Assembly: GCA_027028665.1 (NCBI GenBank)
Contig: JALVIU010000057.1
Coordinates: 1-5,928 of the forward strand
Origin: Candidatus Atribacteria bacterium
Lineage (GTDB): Bacteria > Atribacterota > JALVIU01
DNA length: 5,928 bases
Direction: 5' to 3'
Position numbers and translations under genes: made by a program. Numbering within the stretch: position 1 is the first letter of the stretch; the number at the start of each line of letters is the position of its first letter. Shown here one piece after another: positions 31 to 5,419 of the stretch. Below the pieces are notes generated by a model, which had not been told where the DNA came from, did not search any database, and saw only the letters and a list, made by a program, of their open reading frames with translations.

Positions 31-101
31 TAAAATATAAAAAACATAACAGGAAAGGTGTATATGAAATTTGCAAAATATGCGATTATCGGGATTGTTA
101 G
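27..101 (+). CDS. 24-codon ORF overlapping the lipoprotein start; leader peptide or frameshifted N-terminus
   Basis: Starting at the ATG of an ATGA overlap and preceded by AAAGGAGGA, this frame reads MIKYKKHNRKGVYEICK and stops at TAG 99-101, inside the lipoprotein gene. It has no recognisable domain. Two explanations fit. It may be a small coupled leader that delivers ribosomes to the lipoprotein start. Or it may be the original N-terminus, separated from the lipoprotein frame by one extra base; removing one A from the A6 run at 39-44 joins this start in frame to the lipoprotein with no stop between. It could also be chance. Expression is unproven. Confidence 0.25.
   Translation: MIKYKKHNRKGVYEICKICDYRDC
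51..58 (+). promoter_or_regulatory. ribosome binding site that decides the lipoprotein start
   Basis: AGGAAAGG ends 5 nt before the ATG at 64, which is good spacing. The in-frame GTG at 58 overlaps this SD and so cannot use it. The ATG at 64 is therefore preferred, and also gives a compact lipoprotein signal peptide (MKFAKY then a hydrophobic run). Confidence 0.55.
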
Positions 102-1266
102 TATTCTTTTTATATATCCCTTTTTCATTGGGGGATGTAATCTATTTATAGAACCCAGCCCATCCCCTACACCCTCTCCAACCCCTACAGAGGTGATTGT
201 AGAAGAGGTCGAAAATCCCATACTTATAAATGATGGAGGAAAATATACGAATGACCCTGTTGTAGAACTTACACTATCTGCGCCTGGTGCATCTCTTATG
301 GCCCTTTCGGGAAATGGCTCAGAGTGGTCATCATGGCTTATCTATAGTGAGGAATACAAAGGGTTTGATCTATTTAATGGACCAGGTTGTACCAAGGCAG
401 AAGGAACAAGGAGGGTGTTTGTAAAGTTTAAATATCCAGATGGTGATATAAAAGGGCCATATTCTGCATCCATTATACTTGATCAGACCAAGCCATATCT
501 AAAATATGTAAGATGGATAGATGTAAATGCAAATCTGAAGATAGATGCAGGGGATATTCTAAAGATAGGTTTTTCAGAATCTATAGATACAAGTACCATC
601 ACAGCAGATAATGTAAATGAAGTCCTAACATTTAACGAGAGAGGAGCTTCTTATATATCTGATATTAGCTGGGATGATGATGGAAAAAAACTCTCTCTGA
701 TAGTAGGTGAGGAGATCCCCTTTGGTATCACTATTGTCCCCAATGATGAGATAAAAGACCTTGCAGGCAATAGTATAGATACGAGTATTACACTTACTAT
801 ACCACATACTACTCATCATAAACTTGACCATATAGAGGTAAGTCCTACATCACTTACTGTAAGTGCAGGAGATTCCCCTGTAAGGATTGAGGTAAAGGCA
901 TATGATACCCGTAATGAAGATATGACAGACCTCTGTAGTATTTCCTGGTCTTTTATTGGAGGCTCATCAGTAGGGAGTCTTTCTGATTCATCTGGAAGTA
1001 TTGTTTTTTATATACCTCCATCTTCTATGGAAGAGACAGAAGCAAGTCCTACTCCTACTGCTGCGATTACTCCAACACCTACGCCTACTCTTACCCCAAG
1101 TGCTACCCCTACAGCTACTCCTACTCCTACTTCAACACCTACACCGACCCCTACCCCTACGCCGACACCAACTCCGACTCCTTCCACAGATCTCATTAAG
1201 GTGACAGTATGTCATGGGAGTGACCCTCAGAAGATAGAGACTGTTACTGTTACGATAAATTATTAA
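64..1266 (+). CDS. secreted multi-domain lipoprotein with Ig-like modules and Pro-Thr linkers
   Basis: This 400-residue protein (from ATG 64; GTG at 58 would add two residues) begins with a lipoprotein signal: a short basic N-region, a hydrophobic core and an IGGC lipobox, with lipidated Cys at 25. A Pro-Ser/Thr spacer (31-42) lifts the rest off the membrane. Residues ~51-144 match the type INDGGKYTN..VVELTLSA...GNGSEWSSW...YPDGDIKGPYSASIILDQTKP, an Ig-like fold common in bacterial surface proteins. Residues ~145-247 look like a Big_5 (SbsA-type) Ig domain, with a DVNANLKIDAGD loop (Asp153, Asn155, Asn157, Asp161, Asp164) resembling a Ca-binding loop and the typical IKDLAGNSI strand. Residues ~253-318 look like a further bacterial Ig domain (HIEVSPTSLTVSAGD). 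A 45-residue Pro-Thr stretch (329-373) and a short tail containing VTVCHGSDP follow. No catalytic domain is seen. The role is probably structural, adhesive or ligand-binding at the cell surface; any link to the downstream enzymes is unproven. Family assignments are from memory of motifs. Confidence 0.85.
   Translation: MKFAKYAIIGIVSILFIYPFFIGGCNLFIEPSPSPTPSPTPTEVIVEEVENPILINDGGKYTNDPVVELTLSAPGASLMALSGNGSEWSSWLIYSEEYKGFDLFNGPGCTKAEGTRRVFVKFKYPDGDIKGPYSASIILDQTKPYLKYVRWIDVNANLKIDAGDILKIGFSESIDTSTITADNVNEVLTFNERGASYISDISWDDDGKKLSLIVGEEIPFGITIVPNDEIKDLAGNSIDTSITLTIPHTTHHKLDHIEVSPTSLTVSAGDSPVRIEVKAYDTRNEDMTDLCSISWSFIGGSSVGSLSDSSGSIVFYIPPSSMEETEASPTPTAAITPTPTPTLTPSATPTATPTPTSTPTPTPTPTPTPTPTPSTDLIKVTVCHGSDPQKIETVTVTINY
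154..189 (+). repeat. short Pro-Ser/Thr coding repeat (N-terminal spacer)
   Basis: Twelve codons alternate Pro with Ser or Thr (PSPSPTPSPTPT) directly after the lipidated Cys region. Such spacers are typical between the lipid anchor and the first folded domain. The DNA is a degenerate CC(A/T)-(A/T)C(N) hexamer repeat. Confidence 0.8.
1048..1182 (+). repeat. long Pro-Thr coding repeat (low complexity hexamer array)
   Basis: About 45 codons, mostly alternating Pro and Thr with a few Ala, Ser, Leu and Ile interruptions, built from imperfect ACN-CCN hexamers. Codon third positions vary, so the tract is not a perfect microsatellite. Because the repeat lacks stops in several frames it creates spurious overlapping open frames on both strands. 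In the protein it is an extended linker, which would usually join two folded units; here it leads only to a 27-residue tail. Confidence 0.85.
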
Positions 1267-1285: not shown

Positions 1286-2077
1286 ATGAATCTTGGGCTT
1301 TCTAATAAAGTAGCACTGGTAAGTGCAGCAAGTAAAGGGTTAGGAAAGGCAATAGCAACAGAGCTTTCCCAGGAGGGTGCCCTTGTAGCTATATGTGCAA
1401 GAGGAGAAGAGAGGCTTATGCAAACAAAAGAGGAGATAGAGAAAAAAACAGGGAATAAGGTATTTGCTCAAGTTGCAGATATTACTTCATATGAAGATAT
1501 AAAGAGCTTTGTAAAAAATGTAAGAAAAGAGTTGGGCCCTATTGATATACTTGTTACAAATGCAGGGGGTCCTCCAGCAGGAGAGTTTTTTGATTTTGAT
1601 GATAAGGCATGGGAAAACGCATTTAATTTGAACCTTATGAGCGTTATACGGCTTATAAGAGAGGTAGTGCCTGATATGATGGATAAGAAATGGGGAAGAA
1701 TAATTAACATGAGTTCCATTAGTGTAAAGCAACCCATTGCAAACCTTATACTCTCCAATGTGATAAGGGCTGGTGTTATAGGACTTACAAAGAGTCTTTC
1801 CAATGAGCTTGCAAAGTATAACATTCTTGTAAACAGTGTTGCACCGGGTTATATAATGACAGAACGTGTAGATAATCTGGTAAAGGCCACATCAGAAAAA
1901 GAGGGTATATCCCGTGAAGATGTTCTTGCTCGACTTACTGCGAGCACCCCTCTAAAAAGGGTAGGACAACCCCTTGAAATAGGGGCAGTGGTTGCATTTT
2001 TGGCATCAGAGAGGGCAAGTTATATAACAGGTCAAACTGTTTTGGTAGATGGTGGCATGTTTGCAGGGTTAATGTAA
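1286..2077 (+). CDS. short-chain dehydrogenase/reductase, FabG-like, with atypical catalytic residues
   Basis: At 263 residues this is a usual-length classical SDR with a Rossmann fold, presumably a cytoplasmic NAD(P)(H)-dependent oxidoreductase. The cofactor loop is SAASKGLG (13-20), with the first Gly of the usual TGxxxGIG replaced by Ala. Arg39 after strand 2 (CAR) suggests NADPH. Asp65, NAG (92-94), Asn116 and the catalytic-position Ser144 (MSSIS) are present, as is the PG motif with Thr after it (APGYIMTE). Aligned on the downstream GLTKSLSNELA helix, the YxxxK motif reads S157-N-V-I-R161, so the catalytic Tyr and Lys are Ser and Arg. This resembles the BKR-like SDR subgroup (cd05344, as I recall it), which lacks a full tetrad; the substrate is unknown. 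A GGGAGGT SD lies 5 nt before the ATG. The gene begins 19 nt after the lipoprotein and ends 1 nt before the PHP gene, so an operon is likely. A role in fatty acid synthesis is unlikely given the context. Confidence 0.9.
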   Translation: MNLGLSNKVALVSAASKGLGKAIATELSQEGALVAICARGEERLMQTKEEIEKKTGNKVFAQVADITSYEDIKSFVKNVRKELGPIDILVTNAGGPPAGEFFDFDDKAWENAFNLNLMSVIRLIREVVPDMMDKKWGRIINMSSISVKQPIANLILSNVIRAGVIGLTKSLSNELAKYNILVNSVAPGYIMTERVDNLVKATSEKEGISREDVLARLTASTPLKRVGQPLEIGAVVAFLASERASYITGQTVLVDGGMFAGLM

Positions 2078-2078
2078 T

Positions 2079-3548
2079 ATGTATTTTTATAATTTCGAAG
2101 ATTATGAGGCACTCTTTGATCTTATAGATTATTCAAGGGTGCAGGCAGGGCTTTTTTTCAAACTAATAAGATATTATAACCTTAAAAGTATAGATGAGCT
2201 TTATGTAGTATGTAAGGCAAAAAGACCAAAAAAAGAGCATGTGATAACAAGTAATATAGATTCACATATAGCTCGTGCAATAGATCTTTTACTTTATCCA
2301 AAAAAGGAACTTATATTTCCTGTTGCAAGATTCTATGGAGAAAGACTGAAGGCATTTTTAAAAGCCAATTCCTTTGAAGTGCTATTTACCAAAGACCTAT
2401 TAAGGGGTGAACCCCTTATCTATACCATTGATTTAATTGTAAAGTATAATTCTCAAGAGGCTTTAAAAGATAAACTCAAGGAGTTTTATCTATTTGATAG
2501 ATTTCTAAATGAAGAAAAGGGGAGATTGGAATTTTTATCCAAAAGGGGCCATATATTTAATCTGTATGTAGCGAATCCCTCAAACTTTGGTACTTTGTTT
2601 TTCATACTTTCCTTCAAAGAATCATTACTTGAAAAATTAAGATCCATCTTTCCTGGATATGCATTTGCACTTAATGGAATAGAATACGGGGGCAAGGTTC
2701 ATACCTTTTCTAAAGAGGAAGAGGTCTTTGAGTTTTTGGATATGCAATTTATTCCATATGAGTTAAGATGGGATGGTGAATCCATAGATAAGGCTGTAAA
2801 AAAAGAGATTCCACAACTTGTCGAGAGCAAAGATATAAGAGGAGATTTTCATAATCATACATATTTTAGTGATGGAGAAGGATATTTGGAAGACCTGGTA
2901 GAGATCTCAGGATATTTACACTATGACTATGTAGGGGTAACTGAACATTCAAGAACCCAAAAGACAGGCAATGGCATAAATGTTATAGATTGGTATATGG
3001 AAAGGGACCTTATAGAAAAATTAAATAGGGATATCTCTCCCTTTAGGATTTTGTCTGGATTAGAAGTGGATATATTGGGAGATGGGGGACTTGATTTCCC
3101 GGATGATATAATAAAACAGATGGATATAGTAATTCTTGCCCTTCATCATCCAGAGTGGGGAACCCTTGATCCCAATGAGAAGATTGCATATGGTATGAGG
3201 AGTGGATTAGGCTCCATACTTGCACACCCAAAAGATAGATATTGGGGTAGGAAACCCTTTTTTGAACTCGATTTATCCTATCTATTTGAAAATGCCAAAA
3301 GACATAATGTGGCATTAGAGATAAGCTCTATTCCAGATAGAATCGGTTTTTCTGCAGAAGAGCTAAAAGAGGGAAAGGTAAGTAGGGTGAAGTTTGCTAT
3401 AAATGCCGATGCCCATGCACCAGGTTATCTTAAAAATATGGATATAGGGATAATCCGTGCAAGAAGGGGATGGCTTACAAAAGAAGATATTATAAATACC
3501 TATACGCTTGAAAGACTTAGAGAGGAGGGATTTTTAAAAAATGGATAA
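2079..3548 (+). CDS. PHP-domain metal-dependent hydrolase derived from DNA polymerase X, polymerase core degenerate
   Basis: The 489-residue protein follows the layout of bacterial PolX but is shorter than the usual ~570. Residues ~10-75 match the second helix-hairpin-helix part (NLKSIDELY). Residues ~78-245 match the nucleotidyltransferase core, and 254-489 are a PHP domain. The PHP metal ligands all appear intact: His258 and His260 (DFHNH), Asp265, His290 (TEH), Glu329 (GLEVD), His356, His383 (AHP), Asp444 and His446 (DAH). The PolX-type ending (MDIGIIRARRGWLTKEDIIN) is also clear. The polymerase core is not intact: GSxRRG reads KDLLRG (105-110), the DxD pair reads T116-I-D118, the third Asp is Asn161, and the YFTGSK nucleotide motif reads FILSFK (175-180). 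It is probably a cytoplasmic phosphoesterase (3'-5' exonuclease or small-molecule phosphatase), not a polymerase. The start is secure: it sits 1 nt after the SDR stop, and an earlier start would run into that gene. It overlaps deoC by 8 nt. Confidence 0.85.
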   Translation: MYFYNFEDYEALFDLIDYSRVQAGLFFKLIRYYNLKSIDELYVVCKAKRPKKEHVITSNIDSHIARAIDLLLYPKKELIFPVARFYGERLKAFLKANSFEVLFTKDLLRGEPLIYTIDLIVKYNSQEALKDKLKEFYLFDRFLNEEKGRLEFLSKRGHIFNLYVANPSNFGTLFFILSFKESLLEKLRSIFPGYAFALNGIEYGGKVHTFSKEEEVFEFLDMQFIPYELRWDGESIDKAVKKEIPQLVESKDIRGDFHNHTYFSDGEGYLEDLVEISGYLHYDYVGVTEHSRTQKTGNGINVIDWYMERDLIEKLNRDISPFRILSGLEVDILGDGGLDFPDDIIKQMDIVILALHHPEWGTLDPNEKIAYGMRSGLGSILAHPKDRYWGRKPFFELDLSYLFENAKRHNVALEISSIPDRIGFSAEELKEGKVSRVKFAINADAHAPGYLKNMDIGIIRARRGWLTKEDIINTYTLERLREEGFLKNG

Positions 3549-4224
3549 GATAGATATTTCGAAACTCACCAGAGAGAGCCTTGCTTCCACATTTGATGTA
3601 GCAGTCTTAAAACCCGAGGCTACATATGAAGACCTACAGAAAGTACTTGAGGATGTGGTGAGATACAAAGCAGGAAGCATATGTGTTAAGCCTTCTTTTT
3701 TGGAGAGAACCGTTAAATTCTTAAAGGGTACGGATGTTGCTCCAAGTACAGTTATATCCTTTCCTCATGGCGGGGCTACTACCTATGCAAAACAGAAAGA
3801 GGCGGAAAATGCAGTAGATATTGGTGCAGAGGAATTGGATATGGTAATGGATATAGGGGCATTTAAGTCAAAGGATTATAATAAAGTCGAAAAGGATATA
3901 AAAGCTGTAAAATCTACATCTGCTCTTGTAAAAGTAATAGTAGAGACTCATTATCTTACTCAGGAGGAAAAGGTTATCGTTGCTAAACTTGTAAGAGATT
4001 CAGGTGCAGATTACATAAAGACATCTACTGGTTTTGCACCAACAGGTGCTCAGATAGAGGATGTGAAACTCTTTTATAAATTGGTTGGAAATGACATAGG
4101 AGTAAAGGCAGCAGGGGGTATAAGAACTCTAAAAGATGTTTTGTCTTTTCTGGATGCAGGCGCTACCCGGATAGGTTTGAGTAAATTCTTACATATTTTA
4201 GAAGAATTTGAAAAGAGCCAATGA
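3541..4224 (+). CDS. deoC: DeoC-family deoxyribose-phosphate aldolase (class I), variant active site
   Basis: A 227-residue TIM-barrel aldolase of normal DeoC length. Family reaction: 2-deoxy-D-ribose 5-phosphate to glyceraldehyde 3-phosphate plus acetaldehyde, in the cytoplasm, by a Schiff base. Key residues seen are Lys160 in YIKTSTGF (Schiff base), Lys189 in VKAAGGIRT, Asp100 in EELDMVMDIGA and Glu135 in KVIVET. Departures from the usual bacterial pattern are FDVAVLKP for IDHTLLKP (18-25), CVKP for CVNP (Lys50), SFPHGG for GFPLG (73-78), and GLSK (212-215) where a Gly-x-Ser-Ser/Ala phosphate loop is expected. The chemistry is likely aldolase, but the substrate may not be deoxyribose 5-phosphate. 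The start at 3541 lies inside the previous gene (8-nt overlap) with AGGAGG at 3523-3528, about 12 nt upstream, which supports coupled translation. No deoA, deoB, deoD or cdd gene is visible nearby, unlike classic nucleoside-salvage operons. Confidence 0.9.
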   Translation: MDKIDISKLTRESLASTFDVAVLKPEATYEDLQKVLEDVVRYKAGSICVKPSFLERTVKFLKGTDVAPSTVISFPHGGATTYAKQKEAENAVDIGAEELDMVMDIGAFKSKDYNKVEKDIKAVKSTSALVKVIVETHYLTQEEKVIVAKLVRDSGADYIKTSTGFAPTGAQIEDVKLFYKLVGNDIGVKAAGGIRTLKDVLSFLDAGATRIGLSKFLHILEEFEKSQ

Positions 4225-4255
4225 AAATTTTTCATAAAAATTGTTTGAAAAATTT
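4225..4255 (+). repeat. 10-bp perfect inverted repeat overlapping the -35 (operator or weak terminator)
   Basis: AAATTTTTCA (4225-4234) and TGAAAAATTT (4246-4255) are exact inverted copies around an 11-nt spacer, so arm centres are 21 bp apart, about two helical turns. The right arm covers most of the -35 box of the promoter below. As RNA it would be an AT-only stem followed by GAG and five Ts, a poor intrinsic terminator for the deoC transcript. An operator for a dimeric regulator is at least as plausible. An alternative overlapping 7-bp hairpin (4226-4242, loop CAT) uses the same left arm. Confidence 0.5.
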
Positions 4256-4273
4256 GAGTTTTTAGTGTATAAT
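4245..4273 (+). promoter_or_regulatory. sigma70-type promoter for the TRAP transporter genes
   Basis: TTGAAA (4245-4250), a 17-nt spacer and a perfect TATAAT (4268-4273) predict a start near 4280 and a leader of about 48 nt before the dctP ATG. A second TATAAT at 4275-4280, with TTGAGT 15 nt upstream, is a weaker overlapping option. It lies in the only sizeable gap between genes of the window, so the transporter can be expressed separately from the enzyme block. The inverted repeat over the -35 suggests repression. Confidence 0.75.
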
Positions 4274-5382: not shown

Positions 5383-5419
5383 AAGGGAGGGAAGTACTAC
5401 TTCTCTCCCTTATCTTTTT
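5383..5419 (+). terminator. intercistronic hairpin with T-run: attenuator and possible ribosome-spacing element
   Basis: Left arm 5383-5394 pairs with right arm 5400-5411: 12 bp including one G-T wobble (5390 with 5404), with six G-C pairs plus the closing G-C, and a TACTA loop. ATC and TTTTT (5415-5419) follow, so it has the form of a rho-independent terminator. It sits between the binding-protein and membrane-subunit genes, where partial termination or 3'-end protection commonly lowers permease expression relative to the binding protein. It ends immediately upstream of the dctQ ATG, so it cannot terminate every transcript if dctQ is expressed from the same promoter. Confidence 0.75.

Follow-up and report, generated by a model that had tools for sequence, protein, structure and literature searches.

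A stripped-down noncanonical PolX with a degenerate polymerase site and a complete PHP metal site in an Atribacterota bacterium

P0001, a 489-aa PolX homologue (ATG start) encoded between an SDR gene and deoC, is probably a noncanonical PolX that works as a PHP 3′-end nuclease, as judged from its sequence, its predicted structure and analogy with studied relatives. Alignment and structure prediction indicate PolX descent, loss of the polymerase residues, an intact set of PHP ligands and retention of DNA-path residues, and a nuclease activity with DNA as its substrate is presumed from the relatives that have been studied. In the proposed scenario, a PolX paralogue would have lost its 8-kDa lyase domain and the DNA-binding hairpins of its thumb, along with the dNTP pocket and the metal triad of the polymerase, and would persist as an Mn2+-dependent PHP 3′-end DNA nuclease (a 3′-5′ exonuclease, possibly also a 3′-phosphatase/phosphodiesterase or AP endonuclease), with the residual Pol-beta fold serving as a scaffold or DNA-positioning domain.

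Polymerase-dead, PHP-intact PolX proteins represent an already known class, of which P0001 is an unusually stripped-down member in an odd neighbourhood. Altered triads were reported for 27.5% of prokaryotic PolX, accompanied by degradation of the dNTP pocket and an intact PHP site; the two Deinococcus noncanonical PolX tested were shown to be polymerase-dead and active as 3′-5′ exonucleases (Prostova et al. 2022, PMC9226535). A 2026 survey agrees on noncanonical PolX and adds PolX-like proteins, from which the polymerase region is missing along with part of the 8-kDa domain (PMC12926913). P0001 displays PolX homology, a broken triad, degraded dNTP motifs and a complete PHP site, the combination by which noncanonical PolX are recognized. 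The 8-kDa domain, found at full length in 95.3% of all PolX (PMC9226535), is usual for noncanonical PolX without defining them, and its absence from P0001 represents a deviation from the class. The coordinates of P0001, its sites and its neighbours are given in Table 1.

Table 1. Features in and around the P0001 gene (positions in the window)
Feature	Position	Strand	Basis or remark
Lipoprotein-like protein, T/P-rich	58-1266	+	
SDR-family protein	1286..2077	+	stop 1 nt before PolX start
Noncanonical PolX P0001, thumb-palm-fingers-PHP without 8-kDa domain	2079..3548	+	sequence matches, AlphaFold2 model, superposition
Remnant thumb domain, residues 1-79	2079..2315	+	pLDDT 56-78; 2/9 conserved columns kept
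Palm domain, residues 80-165, retains Pol-beta fold but not the active site	2316..2573	+	pLDDT >90; 5/24 conserved columns kept
KDLLRG replacing GSxRRx, dNTP-binding motif (K105, D106, L108, R109)	2391..2408	+	alignment
T116-I-D118 replacing first two catalytic Asp (D-x-D)	2424..2432	+	alignment
N161 replacing third catalytic Asp	2559..2561	+	alignment
ILSFKESLL replacing YFTGSKxHN (steric gate, dNTP pocket)	2604..2630	+	alignment
PHP domain, residues 250-489, all metal ligands kept	2826..3545	+	alignment, fold superposition
PolX-specific loop HPKDRYWGRK (HPxxRxxxRK), holds DNA-path R387 and K392	3225..3254	+	comparison with stand-alone PHP
R421, DNA path (R503 in B. subtilis)	3339..3341	+	alignment
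R463, basic at B. subtilis K545 position, DNA path	3465..3467	+	alignment
deoC, deoxyribose-phosphate aldolase	3541..4224	+	TIGR00126, 214.9 bits, cut-off 117.3
Promoter-like site TTGAAA-17-TATAAT between deoC and TRAP genes	4245..4273	+	11/12 consensus match only

PolX descent and the lost polymerase site

P0001 had been regarded in the first-pass annotation as PolX-derived, and both sequence and model indicate that it descends from PolX. Its sequence matches the PolX proteins of Thermus (3au2, E 6.6e-41) and Deinococcus (2w9m, E 7.6e-36), with homology to prokaryotic PolX spanning palm, fingers and PHP. The NCBIfam PolX model matches at E 9e-63, below the model cut-off (212.7 vs 426 bits), as does PRK07945 (E 2.6e-39, also below cut-off), which presumably represents the PolX-like group of Actinobacteria. 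The AlphaFold2 model (mean pLDDT 90, pTM 0.84) could be superposed on the solved structures, as the first-pass annotation had suggested, with residues 4-489 aligning with residues 84-572 of Thermus PolX (Z 34.7, rmsd 6.2 Å, 483 residues) and residues 76-489 with 3au6 (Z 44.1, rmsd 2.1 Å); the superposition on D. radiodurans PolX 2w9m, to which P0001 is ~25% identical, yielded a Z-score of 37.9.

The order of folds proposed for P0001 (HhH, polymerase beta fold, PHP) was recovered and the polymerase fold is predicted to persist with confidence, but the HhH motifs themselves are gone, the thumb hairpins GVGPK and LPGxGEK being replaced by RVQAG and HVITSNI, respectively. The 8-kDa dRP-lyase domain expected before the thumb is absent in both alignment and superposition. 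The first ~80 residues had been described as missing, and at least 73 residues indeed precede the first P0001-aligned residue in other complete PolX, while the frame cannot be extended upstream (open frame of 491 aa, SDR stop at 2077). Eight short PolX of relatives (G032, G120, G127, G128, G129, G088, G152 and G074) were considered as further lyase-less forms and rejected, as all run off contig ends.

The substitutions in the dNTP-binding motif, at Thr116 and Asn161 and in the YFTGSK motif were all found again upon alignment with 29 PolX of searched relatives, each of which carries D/D/D where P0001 has T116/D118/N161. Approximately 75 further PolX, drawn from 84,980 species genomes, also carry D/D/D, the exceptions being L051 (D-D-E) and L071 from Desulfohalobiaceae (N-D-T). 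With an acidic residue at only one of three palm triad positions, P0001 departs from canonical polymerases, and its polymerase site is, as far as the aligned residues tell, dead. Sequence loss is concentrated in the polymerase part, since 12/53 conserved columns are kept across thumb, palm and fingers vs 40/56 in the PHP domain (Fisher p 4e-7).

Some of the PolX encountered in these searches were themselves unusual. L071 (4993-6720, from a Desulfohalobiaceae MAG) is a noncanonical PolX with the triad N-D-T and 54/56 conserved PHP columns. Conversely, canonical-triad PolX with altered PHP sites were observed in Woesearchaeota (L064 and L090, last PHP His replaced by Lys) and in Saganbacteria (L067) and genome G058 (L168), where the first one or two PHP His are replaced by Gln.

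P0001 shares with the Deinococcus noncanonical PolX (D. radiodurans 2w9m and D. gobiensis) the overall fold, an altered triad, a degraded dNTP pocket and a complete PHP site; however, the N-terminal domain is not specifically altered in the class as described (PMC9226535), whereas P0001 has lost both the 8-kDa domain and the thumb hairpins. Thermus thermophilus PolX (3au2/3auo/3au6) has the same thumb-palm-fingers-PHP order but, unlike P0001, carries GSARR, YLTGSK and all three triad residues and is active as a polymerase. The PolX-like proteins of Actinobacteria resemble P0001 in their close PolX PHP domain and lost N-terminal sequence, but lack the entire polymerase region (PMC12926913), of which P0001 keeps a palm fold predicted at pLDDT >90.

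The PHP domain and its putative DNA path

All PHP metal ligands (H258, H260, D265, H290, E329, H356, H383, E414, D444 and H446) are kept in P0001, as originally claimed, and they include the complete metal site HHHEHHEDH (H258, H260, H290, E329, H356, H383, E414, D444 and H446). In B. subtilis PolX, the nuclease activities require R469, R474, N498, R503, K545 and F440 (Rodriguez et al., PMC6616362). R469, R474, R503 and K545 correspond to R387, K392, R421 and R463 of P0001, K392 being placed by alignment plus its offset from R387, so that basic residues occupy four of five DNA-path positions in the alignment. Two elements are changed compared with B. subtilis PolX, namely N498, replaced by S416, and the Phe440 loop, where HSGF is replaced by HHPEW.

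The PHP domain had been interpreted as a repurposed phosphoesterase with a metabolic substrate. In this reading, it would act on a small sugar- or nucleotide-phosphate tied to DeoC and the SDR, and the polymerase fold would serve in substrate binding. Phosphatases do exist among PHP enzymes, and E. coli YcdX (1m65) shares with P0001 the PHP fold (Z 26.6) and the metal ligands. However, YcdX has a gap in place of the R469-R474 loop, which P0001 keeps in its HPxxRxxxRK form, and six stand-alone PHP proteins of Atribacterota were also shown to lack the loop, as well as Arg at the R503 and K545 positions, all of which are kept in P0001. The presence of the loop and of R421/R463 thus separates P0001 from phosphatases of the YcdX or stand-alone PHP type, and favours a DNA 3′-end nuclease over a metabolic phosphatase. 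Furthermore, DNA is the substrate of those noncanonical PolX that have been tested (PMC9226535), which argues against the phosphoesterase proposal.

That proposal nevertheless draws on several features of the protein that weigh against a nuclease. In addition to the S416 and HHPEW changes, known DNA contacts disappear with the thumb hairpins and the 8-kDa domain, and the 40/56 PHP columns conserved in P0001 fall below the fifth percentile of canonical PolX (49), in contrast to the noncanonical L071. Together with the lower PHP conservation, the lost hairpins and the changes at N498 and F440 would allow for a shift in substrate. The phosphoesterase proposal is also favoured by a PHP search of the genome, which returned only a >1,100-aa protein (DnaE-sized) and two PolX, and no stand-alone PHP phosphatase. 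The phosphoesterase reading is considered unlikely, and a little more so in the version where a PolX devoid of polymerase activity and of the lyase domain would have joined a deoxyribose-linked metabolic operon, with a small phosphorylated or nucleotide substrate and the Pol-beta fold as its ligand-binding domain.

Genomic neighbourhood

The window (the whole stretch of DNA analysed, 5,928 bp) represents an entire contig of an Atribacterota genome that is ~90% complete (413 contigs, 1.79 Mb). Contamination was dismissed on the basis of a tetranucleotide correlation of 0.976 with the genome's other contigs, vs 0.17-0.85 for relatives. P0001 is tightly packed, with a 1-nt gap to the SDR gene and an 8-nt overlap between its end and the deoC start, which bears out the tight operon of the first-pass annotation and speaks for a metabolic role. 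A strong promoter-like site precedes the TRAP genes dctP and dctQ, which lie downstream of deoC on the + strand, suggesting that SDR, P0001 and deoC likely form a unit and that the TRAP genes start anew. The metabolic, non-repair character of the neighbours and the failure to find a Ku gene in the genome weigh against a nuclease, and a link to NHEJ is left without support.

The metabolic inference drawn from the operon was not supported by a wider comparison. Neither PolX nor the SDR-PolX-deoC order was observed at any of 20 deoC loci in other Atribacterota genomes, which, like the promoter-like site that separates the TRAP genes, runs counter to the metabolic phosphoesterase; an SDR was found near deoC at only one of these loci. 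The coupling of P0001 to the SDR and deoC genes is genuine, but as the arrangement is known from a single genome, the operon is not readable as evidence of function, and the neighbours may be co-transcribed with P0001 without a common pathway.

Several neighbouring sequences have features of their own. The lipoprotein-like protein has no Pfam match and shows a lipobox-like GGC together with a long tract of Thr-Pro repeats. The SDR protein lacks the classical YxxxK dyad, having S157 and R161 in LILSNVIRAG (residues 157-161, 1754-1768); the dyad is missing at this position from the solved relatives 5vps and 2z1n as well, indicative of an atypical SDR group already represented in the PDB. A 13-bp stem-loop with a T-rich tail (5383-5411) lies after dctP and before dctQ, and could lower permease expression relative to that of the binding protein.

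A DNA-salvage nuclease, i.e. a 3′-5′ exonuclease feeding deoxynucleotides to deoxyribose catabolism via DeoC, would account for the nuclease features and the operon together. It is consistent with the retained DNA-path residues and with the immediately downstream position of deoC, the genome's only match at E 1e-15 or better. Conversely, the window carries no phosphorylase, phosphopentomutase or nucleoside uptake genes, P0001 has no evident export signal and only one genome shows the arrangement, leaving salvage improbable.

A functionless, decaying paralogue whose frame is open by chance is less probable still, for although the branch of P0001 is very long, at 2.6-4.7 changes per column, and no orthologue was found in genome, phylum and contig scans, its full 489-aa frame is tightly packed between both neighbours, the retention of all PHP ligands alongside loss of the polymerase sites is a selective pattern, and its predicted fold is confident. 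Searches with P0001 by itself yielded no relatives in genome and viral contig collections, while a PHP-profile scan of genome contigs retrieved 126 relatives, the best 80 of which were 31-40% identical. Scans of the phylum (50 genomes) and a further phylum (136 genomes) returned only PolX at 25-38% identity and no orthologue, another phylum was represented by 4 genomes only, and all plasmid and phage matches listed were below 33% identity. Scans of this kind depend on close seeds or reach a small number of genomes, so that distant or unsampled orthologues may exist.

A second PolX and implications for the family

The separate full-length polX for which the first-pass annotation proposed a search is present (contig C385, locus L004, 4319-5998, - strand, 559 aa), yet its product also appears polymerase-dead. 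This second PolX carries the triad N192/D194/S234 (N-D-S) and GELRR, and keeps the 8-kDa domain, the thumb hairpins, TTGSK and the PHP site; 19/53 conserved columns remain in its polymerase core vs 45/56 in PHP. Its locus was read as pheS-pheT-cvpA-polX-mutS2, with neighbour names assigned by sequence reading. The occurrence of two PolX genes in one genome has been described (PMC9226535). Placement of P0001 and the second PolX, both on long branches, in one clade gave a p-AU of 0.53, which neither supports nor rejects an origin by duplication. No polymerase-competent PolX was found in the ~90% complete genome. Decay of the second PolX in the same pattern supports the assignment of P0001 as a PHP 3′-end nuclease. 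A role as the cell's only AP endonuclease was ruled out by an Nfo (endonuclease IV) gene (341 bits); a PF03372 ExoIII-type gene was not found in the genome.

Acting as such a nuclease, P0001 would extend the finding that PolX can be retained for nuclease activity and not for DNA synthesis, here in one bacterium whose two PolX genes both combine a broken polymerase site with an intact PHP site. As an intermediate form, with noncanonical PolX on one side and PolX-like proteins free of a polymerase domain on the other, P0001 may be used to probe what the polymerase core contributes to the nuclease.
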